Origin: Microcaldota archaeon
Lineage (GTDB): Archaea; Micrarchaeota; Micrarchaeia; Micrarchaeales; Micrarchaeaceae
Direction: 5' to 3'
Assembly (NCBI GenBank): GCA_021817565.1
Contig: JAKAUP010000007.1
Coordinates: forward strand, 62,001-126,000
DNA length: 64,000 nt
Numbering within the stretch: the stretch's first letter is position 1; each line of letters starts with the position of its first letter. A model generated the notes under the pieces. It ran no database searches, was not told the origin of the DNA, and worked only from the letters and a program-made list of their open reading frames with translations. Shown piece after piece: positions 6,267 to 58,562 of the stretch. Made by a program: the position numbers and the translations under genes.

Positions 6267-6305
6267 GTTTGTCGGGACGGAATTAAGAAACCGTCCGGGA
6301 CAAAC
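6267..6305. terminator. Hairpin gtttgtcgggacgg-aattaagaaa-ccgtccgggacaaac (copy 1)
   Basis: Inverted repeat overlapping the stop codon of the 6283-7128 ORF, between convergent thrC and that ORF. Confidence 0.55.
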
Positions 6306-7128
6306 TTTTTTTGTTGGTTGCCAGATTATACAGAGTATTTTCTGTACGCATTTGCCTTAAAGCGACAGATACGGCGGTTGGCACAGTGGTTGGCACAACA
6401 TCCGACACCCCTGTTCTAAGATAGGAGATTTTTGGGTGTTTTGTATTTGATTCGGCATTTCTTTTTTTTGCCGTTGTCTGTTCGACCGGGTAGATGCTGT
6501 CCATAATAACTTTTTCTTTAGATTTACCGTTTGTCGTCCATATTGGAGTTACCTTGACCTTTTCACCTATCTTCAAGTGTGGTTGGTGTGTATCTGTCTG
6601 CACGACTCGCATTTCTTTTCCACTGTTTAATTGGTAGTTAAAAACTGTTGGTGGTAGTTTATTTTTTTCTACAATAACAGATGTCCCAGCTACACCAGTC
6701 ATTATTACACCAGTTATTAAAACAGCTCCCATTACAGATATCGGATATACACGCGAAAAAGGTTCATCGGTTCTTGCCGTGGCAAGAAGGGCGGCTAAAC
6801 CGGTCACTGCAAACACCCCAAGGTAAAGCTCTGCAGCAAGTTGAAGTAGAGTTGGTGATTTTTGTTTATAACCAGTCACCGTAGCCTCCATTGACGGACC
6901 TGCCTTAATGGCAATGGCAGATGGTTTAGTTTCGATCACTCTCTCAATCTTAGGCTGTTCTTTTAAAGCTTGCTTGGACCAATTTTCTTCTGGACGATGA
7001 GTAAGTAAAAGCGTGCCCAGGGCGATAGCAGGCGATATCAAGAATAGGGCAGAGCCAGGAGCCGATACTGACCATCTCACTATATCTGATACTATGTTTT
7101 TATTTGAGCCTATATAATAATTTGTCAT
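6283..7128 (-). CDS. Tandem-paralog membrane protein, copy A
   Basis: ORF; shares GTLLLTHRPEENW, EQPKIERVIETKPSAIAIKAGPSMEATVTGYKQKSPTLL and C-terminal ALRQMRTENTLYNLATN..SLSRTVS with the next two ORFs; hydrophobic segments. Confidence 0.7.
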   Translation of the reverse strand: MTNYYIGSNKNIVSDIVRWSVSAPGSALFLISPAIALGTLLLTHRPEENWSKQALKEQPKIERVIETKPSAIAIKAGPSMEATVTGYKQKSPTLLQLAAELYLGVFAVTGLAALLATARTDEPFSRVYPISVMGAVLITGVIMTGVAGTSVIVEKNKLPPTVFNYQLNSGKEMRVVQTDTHQPHLKIGEKVKVTPIWTTNGKSKEKVIMDSIYPVEQTTAKKRNAESNTKHPKISYLRTGVSDVVPTTVPTAVSVALRQMRTENTLYNLATNKKSLSRTVS

Positions 7129-7254
7129 TCAATCACGGCTGTACTCTATCTTTTCAGATATATATGGGTTTTGTTGTAGTTTTTCGGCTTTTTCCAGTAT
7201 GTTTTTATACTGCATTGGAGTGAGTTCGGGCCCTGTTATGTTTCTTAGTGATTT

Positions 7255-7293
7255 GTTTGTCGGGACGGAATTAAGAAACCGTCCGGGACAAAC
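7255..7293. terminator. Hairpin copy 2 (gtttgtcgggacgg...ccgtccgggacaaac)
   Basis: Identical to copy 1, overlaps stop codon of 7271-8116. Confidence 0.5.
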
Positions 7294-8116
7294 TTCTGTT
7301 GGTTGCCAGATTATACAAAGTATTTTCTGTACGCATTTGCCTTAAAGCGAACGATACAGCGGTTGGCACAGTGGTTGGCACGACATCCGACACCCCTGTC
7401 CTAAGATAGGAGATTTTTGGATGTTTTGTATTTGATTCGGAATTTCTTTTTTTTACCGTTGTCTGTTCGACCGGGTTGATGCTGTCCATAATAACCTTTT
7501 CTTTAAATTTACCATTTGTTATCCATACTGGTGTTGGAGTTACTTCGATCTTTTCGCCTATCTTCAATGGGGGTTGGCGTGTATTTACCTGCACAAATTC
7601 TTCTTTTCCATTCGGGTTTTTTAATCGATAGTAAAAAGCGAGTGACGGTTGTGAGGGTATTACGCCCATTCCTGCCAGCGCCATATTTCCTACAACTGCT
7701 ATACCGGTGACTATAGGGGTCCCTATGAAAGCTGCTGTGGTTGTAAGATCTAGGCTTAGCCCGCCATCTATTATCCCCTCAGCAATAAGACTGGCAACAC
7801 CAAGCAATGCAAAAACCCCAAGGTAAAGCTCTGCGCCAAGTTCAAGTAGGGTTTGTGATTTTTGTTTATAACCGGTTACCGTGGCCTCCATTGACGGACC
7901 TGCCTTAATGGCAATGGCAGATGGTTTGGTTTCGATTACTTTCTCGATCTTAGGCTGTTCTTTTAGATGTTCGGGCCAATTTTTTTCTGGACGATGAGTA
8001 AGTAAAAGCGTGCCCAGGGCAGCAACAGGTAATAGCCCAACAATACTAATACCGAGTATACCACCAGTCATCACAGCTTTTTCTTTGGCGTTTTCTATTA
8101 CATCTTCCATTGTCAT
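7271..8116 (-). CDS. Tandem-paralog membrane protein, copy B
   Basis: Near-identical N-proximal and C-terminal blocks with copies A and C; divergent central TM region. Confidence 0.7.
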   Translation of the reverse strand: MTMEDVIENAKEKAVMTGGILGISIVGLLPVAALGTLLLTHRPEKNWPEHLKEQPKIEKVIETKPSAIAIKAGPSMEATVTGYKQKSQTLLELGAELYLGVFALLGVASLIAEGIIDGGLSLDLTTTAAFIGTPIVTGIAVVGNMALAGMGVIPSQPSLAFYYRLKNPNGKEEFVQVNTRQPPLKIGEKIEVTPTPVWITNGKFKEKVIMDSINPVEQTTVKKRNSESNTKHPKISYLRTGVSDVVPTTVPTAVSFALRQMRTENTLYNLATNRSLSRTVS

Positions 8117-8242
8117 TCAATCACGGCTGTACTCTATCTTTTCAGATATATATGGGTTTTGTTGTAGTTTTTCGGCTTTTTCCAGTATGTTTTTATACTG
8201 CATTGGAGTGGGTTCGGGTCCTGTTATGTTTCTTAGTGATTT

Positions 8243-8281
8243 GTTTGTCTGGACGGAATTAAGAAACCGTCCGGGACAAAC
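8243..8281. terminator. Hairpin copy 3 (gtttgtctggacgg...ccgtccgggacaaac)
   Basis: Third copy, one substitution; overlaps stop codon of 8259-9062. Confidence 0.5.
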
Positions 8282-9062
8282 TTCTGTTGGTTGCCAGATT
8301 ATACAAAGTATTTTCTGTACGCATTTGCCTTAAAGCGGCCGATACAGCGGTTGGCACAGCGGTTGGCGCGGCATCCGACACTTCCATCCTAAGATAGGAG
8401 ATTTTTGGATGTTTTGTATTTGATTCGGCATTTCTTTTTTTTACCGTTGTCTGTTCGACCGGGTAGATGCTGTCCATAGTAACTGCTTTATGTTTACCAG
8501 TTATCCATACTATTGTTGGAGTTACTCCAACCTTTTCGCCTATCTCCAAGTGGGGTTGGCGTGTATTTACCTGCACAAATTCTTCTTTTCCATTCGGGTT
8601 TTTTAATCGATAGTAAAAAGCGGGTGGTTTTGATTGTGGTAGTAGGCCCATTCCTCCAAGCCCCATTAAACCTATAAATCCTAAACCAGTTAGTACAGAA
8701 GCCGATGCGACTGCAGCACAACGTTCATCCTCATCTGCAGTTCCCACGAGAACAAGCGCAACTAATCCAAAAGTACAAAGGTAAACCTCTGCGCCAAGTT
8801 CAAGTAGAGTTGGTGATTTTTGTTTATAACCGGTTACTGTGGCCTCCATTGACGGACCTGCCTTAATAGCAATGGCAGATGGTTTAGTTTCGATTACTTT
8901 CTCGATTTTAGGCTGTTCTTTTAGATGTCCGGGCCAATTTTTTTCTGGACCGTGAGTAAGTAAAAGCGTGCCTAGGGCAGCAACAGGTGCTAACACCGCC
9001 AGACCGCTGCCGATCATCACAGCTATCTCTTTGGCGTTTTCTATTACATTTCTCGTTGTCAT
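8259..9062 (-). CDS. Tandem-paralog membrane protein, copy C
   Basis: As copies A and B. Confidence 0.7.
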   Translation of the reverse strand: MTTRNVIENAKEIAVMIGSGLAVLAPVAALGTLLLTHGPEKNWPGHLKEQPKIEKVIETKPSAIAIKAGPSMEATVTGYKQKSPTLLELGAEVYLCTFGLVALVLVGTADEDERCAAVASASVLTGLGFIGLMGLGGMGLLPQSKPPAFYYRLKNPNGKEEFVQVNTRQPHLEIGEKVGVTPTIVWITGKHKAVTMDSIYPVEQTTVKKRNAESNTKHPKISYLRMEVSDAAPTAVPTAVSAALRQMRTENTLYNLATNRSLSRTVS

Positions 9063-44781: not shown

Positions 44782-45765
44782 ATGGGGATAGGAATAGGAG
44801 AGCTGAAAAGCATGCTCGAACGGTACAGAAAATCAAATGTCTCCATAGCATCGCATTCAATAGGCGATGCAGACTTCATAGGTTCTGCGATTGCGCTTGC
44901 CGAGTATATCCCAAACTCGAAAATCATAGTACAAGACAAGATATCCGCAAACGTTGAGCGGATACTTAAACAGAACGGCATATTACTCAAGACAGATAGT
45001 TCGCTTGGCAATCCAGATTTGATCATACTTCTCGACGTAAACAACTTCCAGAACTGTGGCACATTGCAAACAGAGTTATCAAAAACAAAAAAGAGCATAC
45101 TCATCATAGACCACCACCATCCTAAAGCCGAGGAAAGGGAAAACGTAATAACGTTCGACCAGGAGGAATACTCTTCTACCTGCAACATAGTATACAGCGT
45201 CCTCAAAGAGCTGGGATTCAAGCTGACGCAAAAGTCGGCAGAGATGCTCCTAATCGGCATGGTGTCAGACTCCGCAGAACTGATCAATTCAACGCCAAAA
45301 ACATTCATGCACGTATCAGAGATACTCGATTATACGAAAACCGACTATGCGGACATAGTAGAAGAAATATCCTACAATCTTAACTCAAAGGAACGCGAAG
45401 AGATAATCTCAGATATATGCTCATCAAGCAAGGAAAACATATCTGGTATACTGATACTGTACGGAGAGTCAAAGCTGCCCGCGCACATATCCGCGGACTT
45501 TGCAGTAAAAGCAGGGGCAGACATAGCCCTATTTTACTCGTATTACAAAGAGGAAATATCAATATCTGCAAGGATGCGTCACTCCACCGAGAAGAAGCGC
45601 AAAATACACCTTGGCGAGATAATGGGCAAATGCGCGCATGCAATAAACGGCACGGGCGGAGGACACAGCTGTGCGGCAGGCGCATACGGCCCCAAAAAGG
45701 AAGGGTATAAAGATTTCGTAAAGGAGTTCAAGGAGATGGTTTCTGCAACTGCGGCGGTTTTATGA
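44782..45765 (+). CDS. DHH-family phosphoesterase
   Basis: SIGDADFIGSAIAL; LDVNN; ILIIDHHHPK (DHH); NGTGGGHSCAAGAYG (DHHA1-like). Confidence 0.88.
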   Translation: MGIGIGELKSMLERYRKSNVSIASHSIGDADFIGSAIALAEYIPNSKIIVQDKISANVERILKQNGILLKTDSSLGNPDLIILLDVNNFQNCGTLQTELSKTKKSILIIDHHHPKAEERENVITFDQEEYSSTCNIVYSVLKELGFKLTQKSAEMLLIGMVSDSAELINSTPKTFMHVSEILDYTKTDYADIVEEISYNLNSKEREEIISDICSSSKENISGILILYGESKLPAHISADFAVKAGADIALFYSYYKEEISISARMRHSTEKKRKIHLGEIMGKCAHAINGTGGGHSCAAGAYGPKKEGYKDFVKEFKEMVSATAAVL

Positions 45766-46991
45766 AGATAGGGATAGTATCTGACATGCACCTTGGATAC
45801 GAAAGGTTCAGGGAGGATGCATACACTCAGGCAAAACGTGCGCTAGACCTCGCATCTGCATCCTGCGATCTTATACTGATCCCTGGCGATGTGTTTGATA
45901 ACAGAACCCCTTCTCCGGAGGTTATAGCAGAAGGGATAAACATATTCAGGGAGTTGTCAAAAAGAGCATGGCAAGCAAAAGTTACCGATTACATATCCGA
46001 GAGAGAGACGCACACAAGCGTGCCGGTAGTGGCGATTTCGGGCACGCATGAGCGCACGGCAATCGGGAGGGACAATGCGCTACGACTTCTAGACTTGGCA
46101 GGCCTGCTTGTCGATACTAGCGAATCAACCACAATAATATCAAAGGGCGAGGAAAGGGTCGCAATCTATGGGATAGGGGGAGTCTCAGAGGAACTGTTCA
46201 AATCAAAGATAGGTGAGCTGGCGCCTAGGCCGGTAGAGGGTGCATTCAACATATTCATGTTCCATCAGTCAGTCTACGAACTGCTCCCATTTAACGAGGC
46301 TTTTGTAAGGACCGAAGAACTCCCAAAAGGATTCGACCTTTATATAGACGGGCATTTGCACACGAACACTGAGACCGAGGCGCATCGCAAGCCGTTCCTG
46401 ATACCCGGCAGCACTGTAATAACCCAGATGAAAGAAGGAGAGCAATCCAGCAAAGGCTTCATAATATTCGATACAAAGGAAAGGAAGCATACATTCGTTG
46501 AGATAAACTCGCGCGCCTTTGTATCAAAAGAGATAAATGTTTCCGGGAAAAGCAGCACGCAAATCAAAGAGAGGTGCGCAGAGACTATAGCGGAGATATT
46601 ACGCGATCAACACAATGCCATAATCAGGCTGAGGCTAAAGGGTGAGCTGAACCACGGAATATCGAACAGCGAGATAAGCATAAAAGGGCTAATTGGCAGA
46701 TACTCAAAGGAGGCTTTTATAGAAGTGGACACTTCAAAAATAACAAATGCCTCTGTGGAAGAAGGGATAAGGGAGGTAAGGGAAAACAAGATTCACGGTG
46801 AATCAATCAAGGAGCAAGGACTGGCTACACTTCAGCAGGCGCTTGAATCTCTCGGCTTTACCTTGGGGATACCCTCATCAGAACTGTTCGAGATGCTTGT
46901 AAGCACAGAACTCAAGAAAGAACGCCTCACAGAGCAGATACTGGAAAAGTTAGACGCTGCAGACGAGAAAGAGAATAAGGAAAAAGGCTAA
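45762..46991 (+). CDS. mre11: Mre11-like DNA repair exonuclease
   Basis: IGIVSDMHLGYERFREDA; LILIPGDVFDNRTPS; ISGTHERT; HQSVYELLP; YIDGHLHT metallophosphoesterase motifs. Confidence 0.82.
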   Translation: MKIGIVSDMHLGYERFREDAYTQAKRALDLASASCDLILIPGDVFDNRTPSPEVIAEGINIFRELSKRAWQAKVTDYISERETHTSVPVVAISGTHERTAIGRDNALRLLDLAGLLVDTSESTTIISKGEERVAIYGIGGVSEELFKSKIGELAPRPVEGAFNIFMFHQSVYELLPFNEAFVRTEELPKGFDLYIDGHLHTNTETEAHRKPFLIPGSTVITQMKEGEQSSKGFIIFDTKERKHTFVEINSRAFVSKEINVSGKSSTQIKERCAETIAEILRDQHNAIIRLRLKGELNHGISNSEISIKGLIGRYSKEAFIEVDTSKITNASVEEGIREVRENKIHGESIKEQGLATLQQALESLGFTLGIPSSELFEMLVSTELKKERLTEQILEKLDAADEKENKEKG

Positions 46992-47224
46992 TGGCTCCCC
47001 GATGCCGGTTCCAAGCCAATCGCTTTTTCCACTGCCTCCTTGTTTTTGGGATCAACTTTCTGCTCAAGAAACTCAAGATGGCGGGGGTTGCACCGTCGTT
47101 CCTTCTTTCTTGCGGCAGTAACTATCTTTACGAATCCGTCGCTTTCAACGCCAGTTATTACCGCCTTCTTGCCCGCGTCCCTTCCGTATTTCTTTATGCA
47201 AACTCTTCCTACTTCCAATAACAT
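46988..47224 (-). CDS. rpl14e: 50S ribosomal protein eL14
   Basis: LEVGRVCIKKYGRDAGKKAVITGVESDGFVKIVTAARKKERRCNPRHLEFL. Confidence 0.9.
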   Translation of the reverse strand: MLLEVGRVCIKKYGRDAGKKAVITGVESDGFVKIVTAARKKERRCNPRHLEFLEQKVDPKNKEAVEKAIGLEPASGSH

Positions 47225-47228
47225 ACAT

Positions 47229-47750
47229 TCACCTTCTCATTTTTTCTTTTAGTGCAGAGGATATCAGGCTTACCGAACCGTCAATACTTATCTTTCCGGT
47301 GTTTATCTGCAGGTCAAAATCATCATGATTGGTTATATCTACCACATAAAACTTTTTAAAATGCTCTATGGCTGTGCGATCTATCTCAAGCATGCGCGCC
47401 CTTGCATCATTCTCGTCCTCTATGTTCTCTCTTCTCATATACCTCTTAACCCTTACCTCATCCTGCGCGTACAGCCATATCCTGAGCGTCGCGTCTTTTA
47501 TGAGCCATGGGCTGAGCCATGTGCTTATCACACAGTCTTCTTTTGAGGCCATCTCGATAGTCTTCATATCGAAATTCTTTACAAACTCCTCGTCCGTCTC
47601 ATCGATAAAAGAGGTAAGCTTCTTGTTTTCACTGAGGTAATCCTTATACGAGTTTTTAACGTGCAGCAATCCCATGTCGGAAGCGACCCGTTCTGAGATG
47701 GTCGTCTTTCCCGAACCGGTCAATCCGCTTATACAAATCTTAACTACCAT
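47229..47750 (-). CDS. cmk: Cytidylate kinase
   Basis: ICISGLTGSGKTTISERVASDMGL; WLYAQDEVRVKRYMRRENI; neighbours eL14/eL34. Confidence 0.85.
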   Translation of the reverse strand: MVVKICISGLTGSGKTTISERVASDMGLLHVKNSYKDYLSENKKLTSFIDETDEEFVKNFDMKTIEMASKEDCVISTWLSPWLIKDATLRIWLYAQDEVRVKRYMRRENIEDENDARARMLEIDRTAIEHFKKFYVVDITNHDDFDLQINTGKISIDGSVSLISSALKEKMRR

Positions 47751-47755
47751 TTTTA

Positions 47756-48061
47756 TCAGTGCGCCACAAGCTGTAATACATAAGCCTTATATTTGGTGCC
47801 CAGGTCGTCAAGCTTGAGTTCTCCCTGTTCCACCCTGCTGCCGAACTTTATTACCTCCGCAGAGCACTTGCTGCACAATACTCCTCCGAACTGCCTGCTC
47901 GTCGTCCTTCTGCTCTTTCCGCCCTTGCTGCTTATCCCATTCAGTTCCGCAAGGCATATTGCGCAAACATGTGGCGCATTCCGCGCCCTCCTGTAATGCA
48001 CCACACTTCTTCCGCTCTTTGTCACTCTCTTTAGCTTCTTATAGCTTCTTGATCTGTGCAT
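47756..48061 (-). CDS. rpl34e: 50S ribosomal protein eL34
   Basis: MHRSRSYKKLKRVTKSGRSVVHYRRARNAPHVCAICLAELNGI; second CxxC VLCSKC. Confidence 0.93.
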   Translation of the reverse strand: MHRSRSYKKLKRVTKSGRSVVHYRRARNAPHVCAICLAELNGISSKGGKSRRTTSRQFGGVLCSKCSAEVIKFGSRVEQGELKLDDLGTKYKAYVLQLVAH

Positions 48062-48082
48062 CGGTTTCGTCAAACTAAACAC

Positions 48083-48580
48083 CTATTTGTCGCTAAGCGC
48101 TTCCTCCCCCATGGCTTCCATCCTACTCTTTTTCCTGTCATATAGCGCTATAGTTATACCTACAACCAAACCTAATATAAACACCACCGCTATGAAAAGC
48201 TCCTTGTATCCCATGGGGAATATGAAATTTATAACGTATTTCTGCCACGAACTGAGATAAACACCTATCAGCAAGTAATATATTGCGAGCAACACAGGGA
48301 ATATGACTATCATGGGCTTCATCGAATTCTTCATGCTCTCATTGAAATGAGGCATCATCTCTTTCTGTTTTGCCATAATGTGTTCCTGCGGAGCCTTGTT
48401 TTTGATCATTTCCCGCATCTCTATATTTATCCTGTTCAGCTTTCTTTGTATGCTCCTAGCCTTCTTCGGGTTTCCTAGGGTTCTTTGTATTACAGTAGAC
48501 ATAGCAACATCCAATATCGCTATACCCACTATTATCAAAGCCACGTTGATTGGCATTGGTACTAGAATTGCCGTGGTCAT
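48083..48580 (-). CDS. DUF106/EMC3-TMCO1-like membrane insertase homolog
   Basis: Three TM with intervening basic coiled coil (TLGNPKKARSIQRKLNRINIEMREMIKN); cluster context eL34/adk. Confidence 0.75.
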   Translation of the reverse strand: MTTAILVPMPINVALIIVGIAILDVAMSTVIQRTLGNPKKARSIQRKLNRINIEMREMIKNKAPQEHIMAKQKEMMPHFNESMKNSMKPMIVIFPVLLAIYYLLIGVYLSSWQKYVINFIFPMGYKELFIAVVFILGLVVGITIALYDRKKSRMEAMGEEALSDK

Positions 48581-48584
48581 GATA

Positions 48585-49157
48585 TCAATCCATGTTTTTT
48601 ATTGCCTCTATGCATCTGTTTGCCGTTTCTTGAATGCGGCCCTGCCTGTTGTGTATTATGTAAAGCGGCAGGTTTAAATAAGTGGAGTAATACGAGAGAG
48701 CGCTTAGGTTTATCATGCGCTGATTCTCTATCTTTACTTTATCTTCGATCTCTCTAGTCCTGCTTTTGTCCCCCTTTCTTCTAGCCAAAATCTCTTTCTC
48801 TGTCGCGTCTATCATTATTATCCCGGAAAGACCTTTGAGCATTGATATCGCATCGTATGGTATCCCGGAAGTATACCTATTTCCGCTGCATACTGATACG
48901 TGAGTGTCTATAAGCACTGTGCCACTCATGGCGGATATCTGTCTTATGGCAGATTTTCTTAGCGCCGAAGTTACCTTTTTGGGAAGGTATCTTATCTGAT
49001 CCCTGTTCTTTACATATTTCTCCGTCACCGCAATGTCCTTCATCAAAGTACCAATGGTGACCGACTTATACCCTTCTTTTTTAAGCAGCTCCGTCACGCT
49101 CGTCTTTCCTACTCCGGGCGATCCGCATAAGAGGATGCAGTTAAGGGATCTTTTCAT
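48585..49157 (-). CDS. Fap7-type/archaeal adenylate kinase-like NTPase
   Basis: LLCGSPGVGKTSVTELLKKEGYK; VLIDTHVSV; IDATEKEILARRKGDKSR. Confidence 0.75.
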   Translation of the reverse strand: MKRSLNCILLCGSPGVGKTSVTELLKKEGYKSVTIGTLMKDIAVTEKYVKNRDQIRYLPKKVTSALRKSAIRQISAMSGTVLIDTHVSVCSGNRYTSGIPYDAISMLKGLSGIIMIDATEKEILARRKGDKSRTREIEDKVKIENQRMINLSALSYYSTYLNLPLYIIHNRQGRIQETANRCIEAIKNMD

Positions 49158-49176
49158 CTGAACACATCAGAGGGGT

Positions 49177-50820
49177 TTAATCCCCCTCCATTCCTCCGGG
49201 AGGCATTCCTCCAGGTGCGCCTTTCGATCTTGAACTGATAATATCATCTATTCTCAGTATCATCTCGGCGGCCTCGCTTGCACTGTATATCAGCTGTATC
49301 TTCATCTTTGTTGGCTCAAGCACACCGATTGACTCCATGTCTCCCACTGTGTTCTTGAATATATCTACCCCGAATTTCCTGCCGTCCGGAGACTTGTGCT
49401 TGTTCCTCAGTTGTACCAACGTGTCTATCGCGTCAATACCTGCCGTCTCTGCGAGCGTCTTCGGTATGGACTCGAGCGCGTCTGCGAATTTCTGTATCGC
49501 AAGCTGTTCCCTTCCTCCAACCTCTCCGGAATATTGCCTTAGGTTGTCCGCAAGGTCTATTTCGATAGCGCCCCCTCCAACCACATACATCCCGTTGTTC
49601 TCGATGGTTGCTGTTACCGCTCCAAGTACATCCTCAAGCGAACGCTCAACCTCGTCTATCACCTGCTGTGATCCGCCCCTCACGAATATACTTACGCTCT
49701 TGGGGTTCTTGCAGTCCTCTACGAACACCATCTCCTCTCCGCTTACCTTTCTTTCTTCGACAACCCCTGCGCGTCCAAGGTCATCACCCGAGAGGTCGTC
49801 CAGGCTTGTTATTATCTTTGCATTTGTCGCCCTCGCCAGCTTCTCCATATCACTCTTCTTGACACGCCTTATCGCCATTATGCTGTACTTCGCAAGGAAG
49901 TGCTGTGCAACGTCATCTATACCCTTCTGCGTAAACAGCACATTCGCGCCGCTCTTCTTTATTTTTTCGGCCATCTCCTTTAGCATCATCTCTTCCTGCT
50001 GCAGGAATCCCTGGAGTTGCTCTGGTGAGGTTATATCTATCTTTGCGTCCGTTTCCGTCTTCTCTATCTCTAGCGCAGTATCAAGCAGCGCAATCTTCGC
50101 ATCCGCGACGTACCGCGGCATGCTTGGGTGAGTAACCTCCTTATCTATTATCACTCCGCTTACCAGAGAAGTTTCTGCAATGCTTCCTCCAGTCTTCTTC
50201 TCTATCTTTATGTAATCCCTGTCTATTACATAGCGTCCCTTCTGGTTTTTGTCCGTCACTGCGTTTACTGCGTCTATAACAATCTTTGAAAGATGCTCCT
50301 TCGTCTCCCGCTCCCCTATATTCTTTGAACCAAGAGAGACAAGCGCTATCTTCTTCAATATGCTCTCGTCCTTAACATCCGCCTTCTTCGAGCTCTCTAG
50401 GAGAAGCTTGTCAGCCTTTGCGGCAGCCATCTTGTAACCTCTCACTATTATTGTGGGGTGTATCCCCTGTTCAATAAGTTCATCGGCTCCCTTCAACAGA
50501 TTTCCCGCTATTACAACCACGCTTGTGGTTCCATCTCCCACTTCCCTATCCTGACTCTTGGCAACATTCACCATTATCTTTGCCACAGGGTGTTCAACAT
50601 TCATCTCTTCCAGTATGGTGGCTCCGTCATTTGTTATGACGATGTCACCCAAGTCGCTAACAAGCATCTTGTCCATGCCTTTTGGTCCAAGCGTCGTCTT
50701 GACTACATTCGCTACTGCTACCGCAACCGCAATATTCGTCCTTTGGGCATCCCTACCCAACAACCGCGTGGCTCCCTCTGGGAGTAGCATTATCTGTCCT
50801 AAATTCTGGTTCTCTGGCAT
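49177..50820 (-). CDS. thsA: Thermosome (group II chaperonin) subunit
   Basis: [59 protein letters not shown] tail. Confidence 0.97.
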
Positions 50821-51034
50821 ATTTTCACCTATTGTCTGAAAAGCGTTAATATCTCAAATCAAAAAAAGATCCTGTAAATACTAAAATCTCTTAGAATTAT
50901 ACCTACAATAAAATATTTATATTTTGTGCAGGAGCGCAAGACCAAGAAAACAAGCATTTCAGGCCGCCTGTAGTAGGAGTAGCACCCCAAAATCCATATA
51001 TATCATAAAAGCAAAAATGCTTTATTGTGTGGTT

Positions 51035-52108
51035 ATGGGGTCTTATAAAAAGAGGGACGGACACAAGTGGAGCATTCCAAAACTGCTAAGGGTTGCAGGA
51101 GCAGCGGCAATTCTAAGTTCTGCGCTCGCCGCTCCGGTGATGGCTGGCCCAGAGCAGAGCATATACTTCCTTACAGGGGAGAAGGTGATGAATACATACA
51201 CGGATTCAACATCTTCAGATGCAGGAATAACCGATATTATAAAATTCAAAAGAAACGAATTTGCGCTGGGGGTGATGGACGAGGGTCTTGAAGAGGGCGG
51301 GATAAGGACAGGCATTTATGCGGACTATCTCTTCAGGTACAAGATAGCAGACAACATAAACGGGTTTTTGGGCATAGGTCCGTATGTAACGTGGAAAGTG
51401 CCAGTCGGAGAGGAAAACACAGGCGTCAATACCGCGTTGAACACCGACATAACGCTTGGATTTACCACTAGAATAAATCACGACCTAAGCCTTATTTTTC
51501 AGTGGGTGCAGGTAAAAACAGGACTCATTGTAATACAGGATAGCAGAAACACCGACGCAGACAATTTTATGGTAGGTGCAGGATACCGTTTCGGCAATGG
51601 CGATAACACGCGGTACAAGAATTCATCATTCGAGGTATTTTTCGGAAGGTCCGACGCAAGCATGGGATCCGCAACAGATTGGGGCGCTCTGGACGACATA
51701 CACAAAAATGGATACTCCATAAAAGTAGGGTATCTTAACGAGGGCCATTTATATACGAACGAAGGAGGCGAAACAAAAAGGGATGGTATATTTGTGCAGC
51801 TAAGCACGGATTTATACTCAAACAACTTCCTAAAGGTATTTGCAAGTGCAGGCCCTTACATATCATCTACAACGCGTGTGAATCGTGACATGAACGCGTG
51901 CCGCGAAGTTGCGGGAACTCAGGTATGCCAAGAAACAGCCAAAGACGCATACAACATAAACCTGTATGCAAGCAGCGGGGTAAAGTTACTGCTTCCGGAC
52001 AGATGGGAGATTACAGGCAGTGCAAACTACATATACACTGGCAGATTCTTCGATCACAACAACACAAACAGCGTTTTCTGGGGCGTAGGAGTAGGCTATA
52101 GGTTCTAA
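51035..52108 (+). CDS. Secreted beta-barrel outer-membrane-protein-like protein
   Basis: Signal peptide-like KLLRVAGAAAILSSALAAPVMAGPEQ; alternating amphipathic strands (GIYADYLFRYKIADNINGFLGIGPYVTW, ITLGFTTRINHDLSLIFQWVQV, MVGAGYRFGNGD, SFEVFFGRS); C-terminal FWGVGVGYRF. Start chosen with TATA-like catatatat ~38 nt upstream; ORF opens at 50924. Confidence 0.7.
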   Translation: MGSYKKRDGHKWSIPKLLRVAGAAAILSSALAAPVMAGPEQSIYFLTGEKVMNTYTDSTSSDAGITDIIKFKRNEFALGVMDEGLEEGGIRTGIYADYLFRYKIADNINGFLGIGPYVTWKVPVGEENTGVNTALNTDITLGFTTRINHDLSLIFQWVQVKTGLIVIQDSRNTDADNFMVGAGYRFGNGDNTRYKNSSFEVFFGRSDASMGSATDWGALDDIHKNGYSIKVGYLNEGHLYTNEGGETKRDGIFVQLSTDLYSNNFLKVFASAGPYISSTTRVNRDMNACREVAGTQVCQETAKDAYNINLYASSGVKLLLPDRWEITGSANYIYTGRFFDHNNTNSVFWGVGVGYRF

Positions 52109-52929
52109 TCAAGCAGCGATTTTTCTATAATCCCCTTGAAAATGTTGTACATATGTTCGTCTGATAGGACAGGAACATTTCCAAGCGCGTCCATCTCTGC
52201 CATCCTCCGGTCCCTCGGAATAAAACCTAAAAATGTGCTTCCAACATCCCTGGCAACCTCCTCAGAATTTCTACCTTGGTTATTATCGGACATATTCTCC
52301 ACAACTCCAAGAATGCTTACGCCGAACCTCTTTACCATGAGGGCAGACTTTTTTGAATCCATAGCAGAGACTCTTCCAGGCCCTGTAACTATTATGAACC
52401 CTCTCATATCCACAAGCTGCAGTATGCTTAGCGGGGCATCGCTGGTGCCTGGCGGCAAATCCATTACAAGGTAATCTAACTCCCCCCAGTCAGTCTTTTC
52501 AAAAAAATCTTCCAGCATTTTTGCCACTAAGGGCCCCCTCCATATTATAGGTTTTTTAGAGTCGTCAACAAGCATCGCAGTAGAGGCAATCTTTACCCCA
52601 TTTTTTAAGATCGGGACCAGAGGTATCCTTGATATATCCATCTTATCATCGATATTAAGGAAGGCCGGGACATTAGGGCAGTCTATGTCCGCGTCAAGCA
52701 AGCCCACTTTATACCCCATCCTACTAAGCGCATACGCAAGATTTATCGATACGGTAGTTTTCCCTACCCCCCCTTTTGCGCTATACACTCCTATCTTATG
52801 CTTCACTCCAGACAGGCTCCTCTTTATCGCCTCCTTCTTCTTCAACACGTTAATAAAAGAGGGATGCATCCCAGAATTCTCTTCTCCCATACAATCACCG
52901 CAGGCAGAACCAGCAAAAGTCCAACACAT
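52105..52929 (-). CDS. Mrp/NBP35-type Fe-S carrier P-loop ATPase
   Basis: IGVYSAKGGVGKTTVSINLAYAL; LLDADIDCPN; YLVMDLPPGTSDAPLSI; N-terminal SACGDCMG. Start chosen at MCWTF. Confidence 0.9.
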   Translation of the reverse strand: MCWTFAGSACGDCMGEENSGMHPSFINVLKKKEAIKRSLSGVKHKIGVYSAKGGVGKTTVSINLAYALSRMGYKVGLLDADIDCPNVPAFLNIDDKMDISRIPLVPILKNGVKIASTAMLVDDSKKPIIWRGPLVAKMLEDFFEKTDWGELDYLVMDLPPGTSDAPLSILQLVDMRGFIIVTGPGRVSAMDSKKSALMVKRFGVSILGVVENMSDNNQGRNSEEVARDVGSTFLGFIPRDRRMAEMDALGNVPVLSDEHMYNIFKGIIEKSLLD

Positions 52930-53030
52930 CAACCTAAATCGGAAAAGTATATAAGCTTTACATAGGATAATAAGTAAAAAAGAGAGCAAGATGCAACGCT
53001 TATTTTTAACGTTGGAAGTGTTCTTTTTAG

Positions 53031-53411
53031 GTGTTTTCAATGAAAATAAAGGAACTTAGAGCAGGAGTAAGCAATGTAGAACTACGCGCAGAAGTGGTCC
53101 AAAAAGACGAACCAAGGGAAGTCGTATCAAAGTATGGCAAGAGGTTGACGGTCGCAAACATAACCATAAAAGACGAGACCGGTACAATACCGATGTCTTT
53201 ATGGGGCGAGGACATAGAAAAAGTGAACGTTGGCGACACAATAGAGGTCAAGAACGGCTATGTAAGCGAGTTCAGAGGGGCTCCTCAGCTATCGACCGGA
53301 AAGTTCGGCAAGATATCGGTCGTTGAGCAGGGCAAGGGAGGAGGCAAGAGCAGCGCGAAATACGAAGATGAAGAAGAACCCCCGGAGGAGCCAGTAGACG
53401 AAGAGTTCTGA
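53031..53411 (+). CDS. ssb: Single OB-fold ssDNA-binding protein with acidic C-terminal tail
   Basis: IKELRAGVSNVELRAEVVQKDEPREVVSKYGKRLTVANITIKDETGTIPMSLWGEDIEKVNVGDTIEVKNGYVSEFRGAPQLSTG; tail EDEEEPPEEPVDEEF. Confidence 0.85.
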   Translation: MFSMKIKELRAGVSNVELRAEVVQKDEPREVVSKYGKRLTVANITIKDETGTIPMSLWGEDIEKVNVGDTIEVKNGYVSEFRGAPQLSTGKFGKISVVEQGKGGGKSSAKYEDEEEPPEEPVDEEF

Positions 53412-53414
53412 AAA

Positions 53415-54503
53415 TCATTTTCGGAACTTATTATTTTTCTTTCTTCCCTTCCATTTACCTCTTCTCCTTTTATTCTCTTTAGGCAAGTTCTCTTTCCAAT
53501 ACCTCATACTGTAAAACAGGAATACGCCTCCTAGCGCGACACCAAACCATAATGTGGCTATCCTTTCCATGATTGTAACCGCGGAGCTCTTTGCCACGCT
53601 CAGTCCCATTATGCCCCTAAGCAGGGCAAGCAAGGTACCGTCAGTTACCCCTATGTTTCCCGGGGATCCGGTCGCCATTCCCAGTACGTTTGATGAAGTC
53701 TGTATGAAGACGCTGTTCATCAGATTGGGGAAAACCCCGACCGCGACAAGGCATAGATACAAAGCCATCGCATTGAAGAGCGCGGCGGGCAGCGATGTCG
53801 CTATTGATACAAGATATGTCTTAGGAGTATTCAATTTGCTTTGGAATGCGAAGTACTCGTCCCCATAAGCAGTAAACCTCAAAAAGAAGCGGCTTTTCAT
53901 CATCTTCGGTTTGATAAAATTGTAAAACCTGTTATTCAGTATAAAGAGGTACGGGAGCATCAGCACCATATCTATTATGAGCACATATATCACGTAGGTC
54001 TTGAAGTAAAGCGCAGTAATGAGCGCAAGTATGCCTATCCCGAGGAAATCGGTAAATATATCAAAGGTAACTACGGGTAGCGTGCTGGTCAGTTTATTAT
54101 TCGTTATTCTGTTGAGGGTGTAAGCGACAATGACCCTGCCAAATTTTCCCGGGGTAATATTCATAGAGTATAGTGAGAGATAAGTGACGAGGTTCTTCTT
54201 AAGCGGTACGTGTATCCCGAGCTTTTTCAGGTAATAATTCCACTTCAGAAATCTTAGGAGGTAGCCGAGCAGCACAAGCACAAATGCCCCAAGGTATATC
54301 AAGGGATTTGCTGATAATATTATCCCGATTACCTTGCTCAGCCCACCTATCAGCGCTATCACTACAAAGACAAAGAGGCTTATTATGAATGCGGCGGCTA
54401 TAAATAGCGTTATTTTGTTTATGCGGGACAGGTATTCCTCATGGGTCATATTTCCCGTATCGGTAAAAGACCTCCAAAACCCAATCGGCCTCTTTTTTTC
54501 CAT
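53415..54503 (-). CDS. UPF0104/lysylphosphatidylglycerol synthase-TM family membrane protein
   Basis: Multi-TM; LLGYLLRFLKWNYYLKKLG; NITPGKFGRVI; ATGSPGNIGVTDG. Confidence 0.75.
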   Translation of the reverse strand: MEKKRPIGFWRSFTDTGNMTHEEYLSRINKITLFIAAAFIISLFVFVVIALIGGLSKVIGIILSANPLIYLGAFVLVLLGYLLRFLKWNYYLKKLGIHVPLKKNLVTYLSLYSMNITPGKFGRVIVAYTLNRITNNKLTSTLPVVTFDIFTDFLGIGILALITALYFKTYVIYVLIIDMVLMLPYLFILNNRFYNFIKPKMMKSRFFLRFTAYGDEYFAFQSKLNTPKTYLVSIATSLPAALFNAMALYLCLVAVGVFPNLMNSVFIQTSSNVLGMATGSPGNIGVTDGTLLALLRGIMGLSVAKSSAVTIMERIATLWFGVALGGVFLFYSMRYWKENLPKENKRRRGKWKGRKKNNKFRK

Positions 54504-54509
54504 GAATAA

Positions 54510-55655
54510 CTAATCCTTGCAAAGGTTATAAAATAGATTCTCGTACTGCTTAGATATCCTGTCCCAATCGTGCTCTGCAATTATTATTTTTCTCCCAGCC
54601 TTTACCATCCTCCTTATCTTACGCTTGTCCATAAGCACCCCTTCCTTTATCTTATTATAAATGGAATCAATGGATCGCGGGGTCGAATACAAACCAGAAT
54701 CTTTCATCATCTCCGGCATTCCCCCCGCCCTCGCAACCACGCAGGAAAGTTCGGAAGCCATTGCCTCAAGCAGCGCGACAGATGCAGGCTCATAAGTAGA
54801 TTGCAATGAGAACATATCCGAAGCATTGTAGTAATACTTTGTAAGTTGGTGGTCAACCTTTCCTGCAAAACACACATTCCCACTCAATCCCTCCTTTTCT
54901 ACGAGTCCAGTTAATTTTTGCAGGTATGGCCCGTCTCCAAGGAGTACCAATTTCATATCAAATTCCCTAAGCAGTCTCTTGACTGCCATTATCAGATAGC
55001 TATGCCCTTTCTGCGGCACGAGCCTGCCAACATCTAAAATGGTAAAGTTATCGAGATCGAAGCTGTCCGCTATACGCCTTACATGCGCATCGCTTTTCGG
55101 TCTTTTCTTGAAAGCATCATAATCAACCCCATTGTAGACAACATGCGATTTCCCAATCAACTTTTTTGGCACGGTAGACAACAAAGCGCTTTTCGATACT
55201 CCTGTCAAAAGATCTGCAGCTTCCATCATCCGTCGTCCGACCAATGTATCATACAACAAACCCGCAGAATCGGTAATAAAATCTATATTCTGAGGAAGGG
55301 CGTTGTGTATCGTCAAAGCAAGTTTGCCGATATTCTTCATCTTTCCTACTTCGCTGAGTGTATATTGGAACCGATTGTTTATGTGGTATATTTGCGAGTC
55401 GGACTTCCTTATTGCATCAACCAAACCATGCATTCTCAGATAAGGGAGAGGGGCCTTCGGTACGTTTATAAAATCAGTCTTAAGTCTTATGACATCGATT
55501 CCGAATACGCTGTCCAGTTTCAGTTCCCTACCGTTGTTACTGGTTATCACAGTTACCTGATGTTTTTTGGCAAGTCTTTTATAAACCTCAAGCAGTACGG
55601 TCTCAGTACCACCACTATAAGGGTAAAAGAAAGGGTTCAATACGCAAATTCTCAA
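54510..55655 (-). CDS. GT4-family glycosyltransferase
   Basis: PFFYPYSGGTETVLLEVYKRLAKKHQVTVITS; VYNGVDYDAF; ILDVGRLVPQKGHSYLI; STYEPASVALLEAMASELSCVVARAGGMPEMM. Confidence 0.92.
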   Translation of the reverse strand: MRICVLNPFFYPYSGGTETVLLEVYKRLAKKHQVTVITSNNGRELKLDSVFGIDVIRLKTDFINVPKAPLPYLRMHGLVDAIRKSDSQIYHINNRFQYTLSEVGKMKNIGKLALTIHNALPQNIDFITDSAGLLYDTLVGRRMMEAADLLTGVSKSALLSTVPKKLIGKSHVVYNGVDYDAFKKRPKSDAHVRRIADSFDLDNFTILDVGRLVPQKGHSYLIMAVKRLLREFDMKLVLLGDGPYLQKLTGLVEKEGLSGNVCFAGKVDHQLTKYYYNASDMFSLQSTYEPASVALLEAMASELSCVVARAGGMPEMMKDSGLYSTPRSIDSIYNKIKEGVLMDKRKIRRMVKAGRKIIIAEHDWDRISKQYENLFYNLCKD

Positions 55656-55769
55656 TGAATCACTCCGCAGTTAACAGATAATAAACTAAAGGTATAATAA
55701 CAATTCTATTCATGAAACCGTTTCATAAAAGGGTATTTATACTCTTTCGCTCATAGCCGGTTGATTAAA

Positions 55770-57218
55770 ATGCACAGCCGCAGGCCTAATGTAGTAATGT
55801 TTATGCTGGACACGCTTAGGGCGTCCGACACTTACACTAATAGCGCGCTTACCAACATAAACAGGATGGCAATGGAAGGGCTTAGTTATACCAATGCGGT
55901 AGCACCAGGCACATGGACAGCCACATCACACGCATCAATGTTTACGGGGAAGCCGGTTTCAGCAATACCGGATGCATCAAAAGACCTATTCAACGGCGGC
56001 ACAGAGAAAATAGATCCATGGTTTGTAAAGACAAAGTTCCTTCCGGATAGCATCAACACGCTCGCATCGAAGCTAGGCTCAATGGGATACTCAACAAGCT
56101 TGTTTTCCAATAATCCATTCCTCAACAGCATGACAAATCTCTCAGAAGGCTTCCAAACAACTTACGACTTATGGAAAGATACAAATGCATCAAAAAAAGG
56201 GATGCTAAGCAGAAAAGCATCAAAGCTGCTTCAAGGCGGAAGCAGAACAAGAATAAAGATGATGGATGTATCATACGCTGTAAGCAGAATATTGCCAGCT
56301 CCTCTGCTGGACAAACTATACCTTGACCTGAGGGTACGGCTGGACAGGGGCGTCGCTGAAAACGACTTCACATATAAAATGGATCGCGGGGCAAACCGAA
56401 CGAACAAAGTGATAAAGAGCTACATAAGGAAGAGAGCACAGTCCGATATAATGCCTAAATTCATGTTCATTAACTACATCGAAGCGCACGAAAATTATCC
56501 AGTCAGGAAGGAAATAGTCCAGGACAAATGGCTATACATGAGCCGCATCATGGAACTGGACGAAAACACAAGATCAGAGCTGCATAAGGCCTATCTTAGG
56601 AGGATAAGATACTTAGACAAAAAGGTAGGGGAAGCCATAAAGGACATGAGGGAATCCGGACTGCTTGATAATGCGCTCGTTATTTTGCTTTCAGATCACG
56701 GGCAGTTCTTCGGGGAACACGGTCTTCTTTACCATTCAATGGCCCCATACTCAGAGGTCTCCAATGTACCTCTCATATCGTTGCGCTTTATTGACGGCAA
56801 ACCAGTAAAGGAAAGGAAAGTCATAGACGAACCGGTAAGTCTTGGCAGAATAGGGAGCGCTGTGGTTGAGGTAGTAACGAAAAATCAGACAAACTTGAAT
56901 GGAAACATGTTTGGCAATGTTTACTCTGAACATACTGGAATAAGCGAGGGCTGGGACGAATACCTGTTGGCAAAACTTAGGAGGAGGTCAAAGTTCGCAG
57001 ATATGATATACAAGGCCAAAATGGAGCACAACAGGCAGGCAGTAGCGATATACCACAACGGGATGAAGCTGATACATTTCTATGGCGGCAGGCCAGATGA
57101 ATTATACGCGATAAATGACAAAATGGAAGAGCAGAACATAATCAGCGGCCACAAAAGCGAAGCGGCAGATATGCGCAAGCGCCATTCAAAATACGTGGCT
57201 AATCATACTTCTCTATAG
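55770..57218 (+). CDS. Sulfatase/alkaline phosphatase-superfamily hydrolase
   Basis: [57 protein letters not shown]. Confidence 0.85.
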
Positions 57219-58020
57219 ACTCCACATAGCTCTGGGAGCAGACTGGCGCCTTGTTTCCAATCTCTTCGCATATGGCAGTGGTATAAAGGTTTGCCGTGCC
57301 TATTATGTTCTCAGATATCTGGCTGCTGGGCTGGTTCAACGATGATATGATATCGGTCCAATTCTTTCCAGCTACAATCTGCGGGTTAATCGGCGTTCCG
57401 ACCTGCAGGCTCTGATTTCCGAAGTCCACAAAAGGTATGTCAGAATTCTTGTCGTACGCGGAGAAGACAACCGTCTGCGAGGCATTGATGCTCTGGAGCG
57501 GGTAATAAAATCCTGTTGCCGGGTCAGGTTTGTTTGTCGTTGTCTCTACTGGAACAAAAGTAAGATATGGGCTCGAGTACGTGGAATTATAAAAGGTGAA
57601 CGTGGCGGTGTTGGGGAATACATCTACTCCGCTTGAGGTCATATAATGCAATCCAGTAAAGTTGCCGAAGCGCATAAGCGCTATCATCATGCTCCATCTA
57701 GTGATTGCGCAATACGGACAATATTCAGCCCCTACGTAAAGCATCTCCGGTTTCCCGCCAGCATACAATTCGGTGCCGTTTATCTTCTGGTAGCCTGGGT
57801 TTGAAGCAAACGCGATGCTTACACCTCTGGCAAGCGACTGGTTGTTTGCAATGCTGTAAAGTTCGGAGTATGTAGAAGTGCTTACAGGCTGGTTGTCAAA
57901 CGCTAATGCAGTAGCATTGCTAAGATGTGGCAAAGGCGCAAACTGCGTGTAGAAAACATAAGCCGCAGCGACTATTATCAAAACAATAACCAGGATATAA
58001 GGCAAGTTTTTCTTGTTCAA
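57199..58020 (-). CDS. DUF929-like membrane-anchored thioredoxin-fold protein
   Basis: N-terminal [35 protein letters not shown] (CPYC). Confidence 0.8.
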
Positions 58021-58028
58021 ACAAACAC

Positions 58029-58562
58029 CTAGGGTTTTTTATGGTAAACATAGTAATAATAAAGTATACCTGCGATGCTTTTGTTGTCAATAATCAGATT
58101 GCTCTTTATCATCTTAAGCGCTTGTGAAACAGAAACCTCTTTTATCTCTATCATCTCATCTGGATCTAGGTTTCGCTTACCCTTAACCAAACCGGTTGCG
58201 ATGAAAAAACCTTCCTTGTGGTCTAGTGCCGCTGGAGAAGGGTATCCTACAAACATTCTTATAACGCGCTTTGGGGAGTAACCAGTTTCCTCCTCAAGTT
58301 CCCTTTTTGCGGCCCTCGAGTAGGTTTCTCTCTTATTCAGGTGACCTGCAGGCAACTCGTAAATCCATCTCCTTATCGCAGGCCTGAACTGCCTTTCCAG
58401 TATTATCTTTCCATCATCTTTTACCGCCACAATAACGGCTGCATCCCTTTCGTATATCCTGACGAACTTAGCAATCTTGTTCTTGTGCCTGAAGGGCATC
58501 TCGTAAATAGAAAGCGTGCCATTCTTGTAAATCAATTTCGGCATAAATCCTATTACAGACAA
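58029..58562 (-). CDS. NUDIX hydrolase (ADP-ribose pyrophosphatase-like)
   Basis: [30 protein letters not shown] (Nudix box). Confidence 0.92.

Follow-up and report, generated by a model that had tools for sequence, protein, structure and literature searches.

The locus

The window analyzed here is a stretch of 64,000 nucleotides, bases 62001-126000 of a 271-kb Micrarchaeota contig. At 51035-52108 on its forward strand lies an intact ORF whose 357-residue product resembles the precursor of a two-domain, outer membrane protein (OMP)-like β-barrel (Table 1); a second in-frame ATG at 51017 is a possible alternative start. An n-region (KKRDGHKWSIPKLLR), a hydrophobic core, and an AxA-type site can be recognized by inspection, in line with the Sec-type signal peptide proposed in the initial annotation, and signal-like N-termini are likewise apparent on the homolog and the paralog described below. 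The mature part comprises ~320 residues and closes with FWGVGVGYRF, the aromatic OMP-type C-terminus that had been pointed out initially. Escherichia coli OmpX, our control, ends in TWIAGVGYRF, such that the last six residues of the two proteins, GVGYRF, are identical. The window protein thus carries the aromatic β-signal of 8-strand OMPs at its C-terminus, as does the paralog (LLVGAQIKF); the homolog ends in GVGYRD, without a terminal aromatic residue.

A crude count of alternating hydrophobicity returned 16 strand-like peaks (z = 2.7 versus shuffles), in keeping with the alternating amphipathic strands described at the outset, and the score exceeds that of all but one of ~50 other window genes; the metric cannot tell OMPs from fimbrial or PCNA-type β proteins and lends weak support only.

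Table 1. Features at the barrel locus (positions refer to the window)
Feature	Position	Strand	Basis
Approximate gain interval, absent from G202	50924..52108		Intergenic identity break; Mrp directly next in G202
Candidate archaeal promoter, TATA-like element	50997..51002	+	~35-40 bp upstream of ATG; sequence and pattern scan
Predicted Sec-type signal peptide, residues 1-37	51035..51145	+	Cleavage between APVMA and GPEQ, judged by inspection
N-terminal barrel repeat (putative), residues 38-187	51146..51595	+	Ends GAGYRF; AF2 model and Foldseek
C-terminal barrel repeat (putative), residues 188-357	51596..52105	+	Ends GVGYRF; homologous to N-terminal repeat
Cys pair C289...C298	51899..51928	+	Loop insertion of C-terminal repeat

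Tandem duplication and relatives of the protein

On sequence comparison, the window protein is a tandem duplication, in which two homologous halves of ~150 residues are joined in one chain. Profile-profile alignment of the N- and C-terminal halves (hhalign) gave a probability of 97% and an E-value of 1.1e-10; the 140 aligned columns span an entire half, and both halves close with GxGYRF. Shuffle z-scores between halves were 4 inside the window protein and 20 inside its homolog, and 6 and 13 when halves were compared across the two proteins. This internal duplication and the single-domain paralog are additions to the initial annotation, which missed both.

The family is sparsely distributed. 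Among 301 Micrarchaeota genomes searched, it is present in two: the window's own genome (G000; 775 kb in 8 contigs, 97% complete) and G236, which belongs to the same family but a different genus. The G236 homolog is full length, has the same two-repeat architecture, and is 36% identical across 335 aligned positions (E 6e-48). The paralog, a 176-residue protein with one repeat, is encoded on contig 5 of the window's genome. Weak profile matches in G142, G250, and G102 were rejected, as no OMP-like reading frame was found there. No relative emerged from tblastn searches of phages and plasmids, and pattern scans of viral contigs and GTDB genome contigs, an insensitive approach, recovered only the G236 contig (JAKARM010000036.1; Ca. 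Micrarchaeota isolate YF4.bin12). Scans of this kind would miss distant relatives, and a distant bacterial donor may exist.

A lipoprotein-like ORF (L003:989-1498(-); ISMLSGCATVP) adjoins the barrel gene in G236, and another (L042:5241-5789(-); GSLAACSTVYS) lies ~1 kb from the paralog in the window's genome; neither has a Pfam match. The contig of the paralog also encodes a Thermopsin-family secreted acid protease (L042:251-1222(+); Pfam E 4e-7), which fits an acidophilic organism.

A disulfide had been suggested for the Cys pair of the window protein. Both residues exist, but the loop insertion that bears them is absent from the G236 homolog; the mature G236 protein has no Cys, and the proposed disulfide is therefore not conserved. 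Elsewhere in the window, at 57202-58020 on the minus strand, is encoded a DUF929 thioredoxin-like protein (E 5e-28) with a CPYC motif and an N-terminal anchor, which might act as an oxidant in disulfide formation outside the cytoplasm.

Archaeal residence and gene gain

Comparison with G202, a genome of the same genus, places the barrel gene firmly in an archaeal context. Fourteen G202 genes matching window positions 44782-58562 are collinear over 13 kb and 55-93% identical, and the barrel ORF is the only gene of this interval missing from G202. The intergenic DNA is 82% identical up to ~50926, where the identity breaks. The flanking genes are archaeal, as the initial annotation had it. Since thermosome and Mrp are adjacent in G202, G204, and G236, the arrangement is most simply read as a single-gene gain between the two in the window's lineage. 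Of the horizontal acquisition proposed earlier, the gain is thus borne out by synteny with G202, whereas no bacterial source was found.

When 51 window genes are ordered by how well their codon usage fits the table of the window itself, the barrel gene comes 27th; E. coli genes score far lower. The paralog and the G236 homolog sit on other contigs or assemblies. An assembly chimera or bacterial contamination at the locus, which would have undone the initial annotation, is very unlikely because the contig is long (271 kb), G202 is collinear on both sides of an empty site, codon usage is native, and there are both a homolog in an independent MAG and a paralog on another contig. We found no evidence in favor of it.

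The window holds another tandem array, at 6286-9062 on the minus strand: three paralogous genes whose products (~270-280 residues, 64-71% identity) carry a hydrophobic segment at the N-terminus. Pfam gave no match for the one copy that was searched.

Fold of the repeats

The best Pfam match of the window protein is OMP_b-brl (PF13505; E 9e-4), which covers residues 231-357 and scores 19.8 bits against a curated gathering cut-off of 28.7 bits. The same family is the best match of the G236 homolog (E 6e-4, 20.4 bits) and, weakly, of the paralog. Taken as single repeats, all five match OMP_b-brl below threshold, and no second Pfam family recurs among them. As every score lies under the curated cut-off, we do not file the protein as a PF13505 member. 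Searches of PDB sequences with phmmer and profiles gave no meaningful match, and PHROGs and NCBIfam returned nothing significant.

An AF2 model of the N-terminal half, built from an alignment of the five repeats (pLDDT 62.5, pTM 0.57), shows seven well-defined strands, preceded by a weak first one. When this model was compared with the PDB using Foldseek, the best 50 matches were all outer-membrane or designed membrane barrels: among them were OmpA (E 7e-5 to 1e-4), NspA (TM 0.71), Ail, OprF, OmpX, PagL, and OmpW. A full-length model from the single sequence (pLDDT 31) was uninformative and was discarded. The model of the N-terminal half is consistent with an 8-strand-type OMP meander, and a membrane β-barrel fold is, in our judgment, highly probable for the protein. 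Its two units may form either one 16-strand pore or two linked 8-strand barrels. Together, the model, the sub-threshold OMP_b-brl matches, and the archaeal locus uphold the original proposal of an OMP-like barrel encoded in an archaeal genome.

Search for Omp85, and candidate OMP-like proteins elsewhere in the phylum

That no BAM component is visible near the gene, as first remarked, extends to the whole genome. A search of G000 for Omp85/BamA (PF01103) returned nothing even at an E-value of 10, and none of the 301 Micrarchaeota genomes contains one above the cut-off, which was exceeded in seven control genomes, all bacterial. Weak matches in G271, G195, and G133 were rejected as SufD-like, glycyl-tRNA-synthetase-like, and metabolic genes. 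The Omp85/BamA partner that would accompany a BAM-assembled OMP was thus not detected alongside the window protein. Its absence might just as well indicate that the organism has no outer membrane.

A PF13505 scan of the phylum yielded further sub-threshold matches, several of which appear on inspection to be secreted OMP-like proteins. For instance, a 252-residue protein of G170 (L025:4697-5452(-)) matches OmpA_membrane with E 9.6e-4 and 19.4 bits, just under the cut-off of 21 bits; G059 encodes a secreted protein of 200 residues ending in YGFGFSFN, and G007 one of 262 residues ending in FGVGMRF (L027:8602-9387(+)). Large β-rich proteins occur in G010, G011, and G012. The OMP-like, β-rich proteins recorded in these other Micrarchaeota genomes comprise the L025 and L027 proteins just named and those at L026:476-1075(-), L022:8722-10497(-), L024:2-850(-), and L024:935-3826(-); most have signal-type N-termini and aromatic C-termini, and none is related in sequence to the window protein. 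Homologs of the G007 protein with the same layout (E 7e-36 and 2e-19) were found in two further genomes, which belong to different genera and, in one case, to a different family. A second group of signal peptide-bearing proteins of ~260 residues can be delineated (L027:8602-9387(+), L046:121-948(+), and L047:1501-2259(-)), with 29-37% identity, C-termini FGVGMRF, VGVGLRF, and LGIGRRL, and representatives in three genomes from at least two families. Neighbors of these OMP-like genes, read by eye, include FtsZ, an Spt5-like protein, and Lrp-/TrmB-like regulators, which suggests that the contigs are archaeal. We regard these sequences as leads, not results.

Proposed role and competing explanations

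Our preferred reading, to which we assign a probability of about 0.5, is that the protein is a duplicated barrel of the OmpA/OmpX/NspA type that resides in the archaeon's own outer membrane and is inserted without BAM. The precursor would leave the cytoplasm via Sec and lose its signal peptide to signal peptidase, and the mature protein would fold in the outer membrane, the layer seen in ARMAN-type cells, as one 16-strand pore or two linked 8-strand barrels, acting there at the cell surface or as a pore for diffusion. The transmembrane OMP barrels described so far belong to bacteria, mitochondria, and chloroplasts, and there depend on Omp85 proteins for insertion. As Omp85 went undetected in the genome and exceeded the cut-off in none of the 301, insertion here would be spontaneous or proceed via another insertase. 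OmpA, OmpX, and similar small barrels fold unaided into bilayers in vitro, and so a route without BAM is conceivable. The gene would have entered the lineage by the single-gene gain between thermosome and Mrp, with the one-domain paralog representing the unduplicated form.

Placement in the cell's own outer membrane, for which the odds are about even, draws on an analogy: cryo-ET showed ARMAN cells to have a conspicuous outer as well as inner membrane, with a periplasm but without an S-layer (PMC4110969; reviewed in PMC4243693). An envelope of this kind is not shared across the phylum, because the related, cultivated Ca. Micrarchaeum harzensis has a single membrane and an S-layer by cryo-ET (PMC8975820). 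Against the outer-membrane reading stand the moderate confidence (pLDDT 62.5) of a model that covers half the protein, sub-threshold Pfam scores, and the YRD terminus in G236. The wider proposition, that a true outer membrane occurs in some Micrarchaeota and carries their own OMP barrels, inserted without an Omp85 homolog, with pores that arose by duplication of an 8-strand unit in the archaeal lineage, is more tentative.

The initial annotation had offered a host-targeted pore alongside the cell's own envelope. In this scenario, the exported barrel would be inserted into the membrane of the Thermoplasmatales host, or be carried to it in vesicles, and act there as a pore or in attachment; the archaeon itself would need neither outer membrane nor BAM. 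Micrarchaeota do attach to wall-less hosts (PMC8975820; PMC4110969), the lack of Omp85 in the genome and above cut-off in the phylum set would be accounted for, and patchy presence in 2 of 301 genomes together with a single-gene gain would suit an interaction gene. However, no delivery or adhesion domain is fused to the barrel, its fold class is that of integral outer-membrane proteins rather than pore-forming toxins, and other OMP-like families exist in Micrarchaeota. Sequence does not choose between the two settings, but the ARMAN literature makes the cell's own envelope the more likely, and we consider action on a host, the main rival, rather unlikely.

Somewhat less probable still is a secreted soluble or surface-layer β protein, the amphipathic strands of which merely look barrel-like. 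Moderate AF2 confidence for half a protein and strand statistics that fail to set OMPs apart from fimbrial proteins or PCNA leave room for it; the best 50 Foldseek matches, all outer-membrane or designed transmembrane barrels, do not, nor do the recurrence of OMP_b-brl alone over all five half-domains and the terminal GxGYRF of both halves. The bacterial-type fold and the absence of the gene from same-genus G202 could also reflect a recently captured bacterial gene with no working role in the archaeon. We think this improbable: codon usage matches the genome, the duplicated architecture has been kept at 36% identity between two genera, a paralog is present, and the searches described above found no close bacterial relative. 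The chimera or contaminant considered above ranks far below any of these.

Comparison with known systems

A literature search, though not exhaustive, turned up no description of OMP-type barrels from Micrarchaeota. As far as the literature searched extends, the fold is known, while its archaeal setting without Omp85 and its natural tandem duplication are undescribed. Should the family prove a genuine Omp85-free archaeal barrel, the second membrane of ARMAN could be tested as a functional, pore-bearing outer membrane, and barrel assembly in archaeal lipids without BAM would become accessible to experiment.

The closest likenesses are to the OmpA transmembrane domain, NspA, Ail, OmpX, and the OprF N-domain, which the window protein recalls in its predicted signal peptide and its putative complement of approximately eight amphipathic strands per unit, and which match the N-terminal model with Foldseek E-values of 7e-5 to 7e-3. 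Unlike OmpA/OmpX-type barrels, the window protein is archaeal, tandem-duplicated, below threshold in Pfam, and encoded by an organism without detected Omp85. The proposed barrel, as an archaeal pore set in an outer membrane, may also be likened to that of Ignicoccus hospitalis, a small protein that does not belong to the OmpA type. An outer-membrane pore complex of that organism is the subject of Burghardt et al. 2007, as listed in PMC4243693. A further study (Arnold et al. 2007, cited in PMC6340704) reports, to judge by its title, that artificial duplication of OmpX yields a functional pore. Both that construct and the window protein would comprise two 8-strand units per chain; the former is an engineered bacterial protein, whereas the latter is the product of a natural archaeal gene and may adopt either of two topologies. 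In essence, the window protein, if genuine, would be a natural counterpart of the engineered OmpX duplication.
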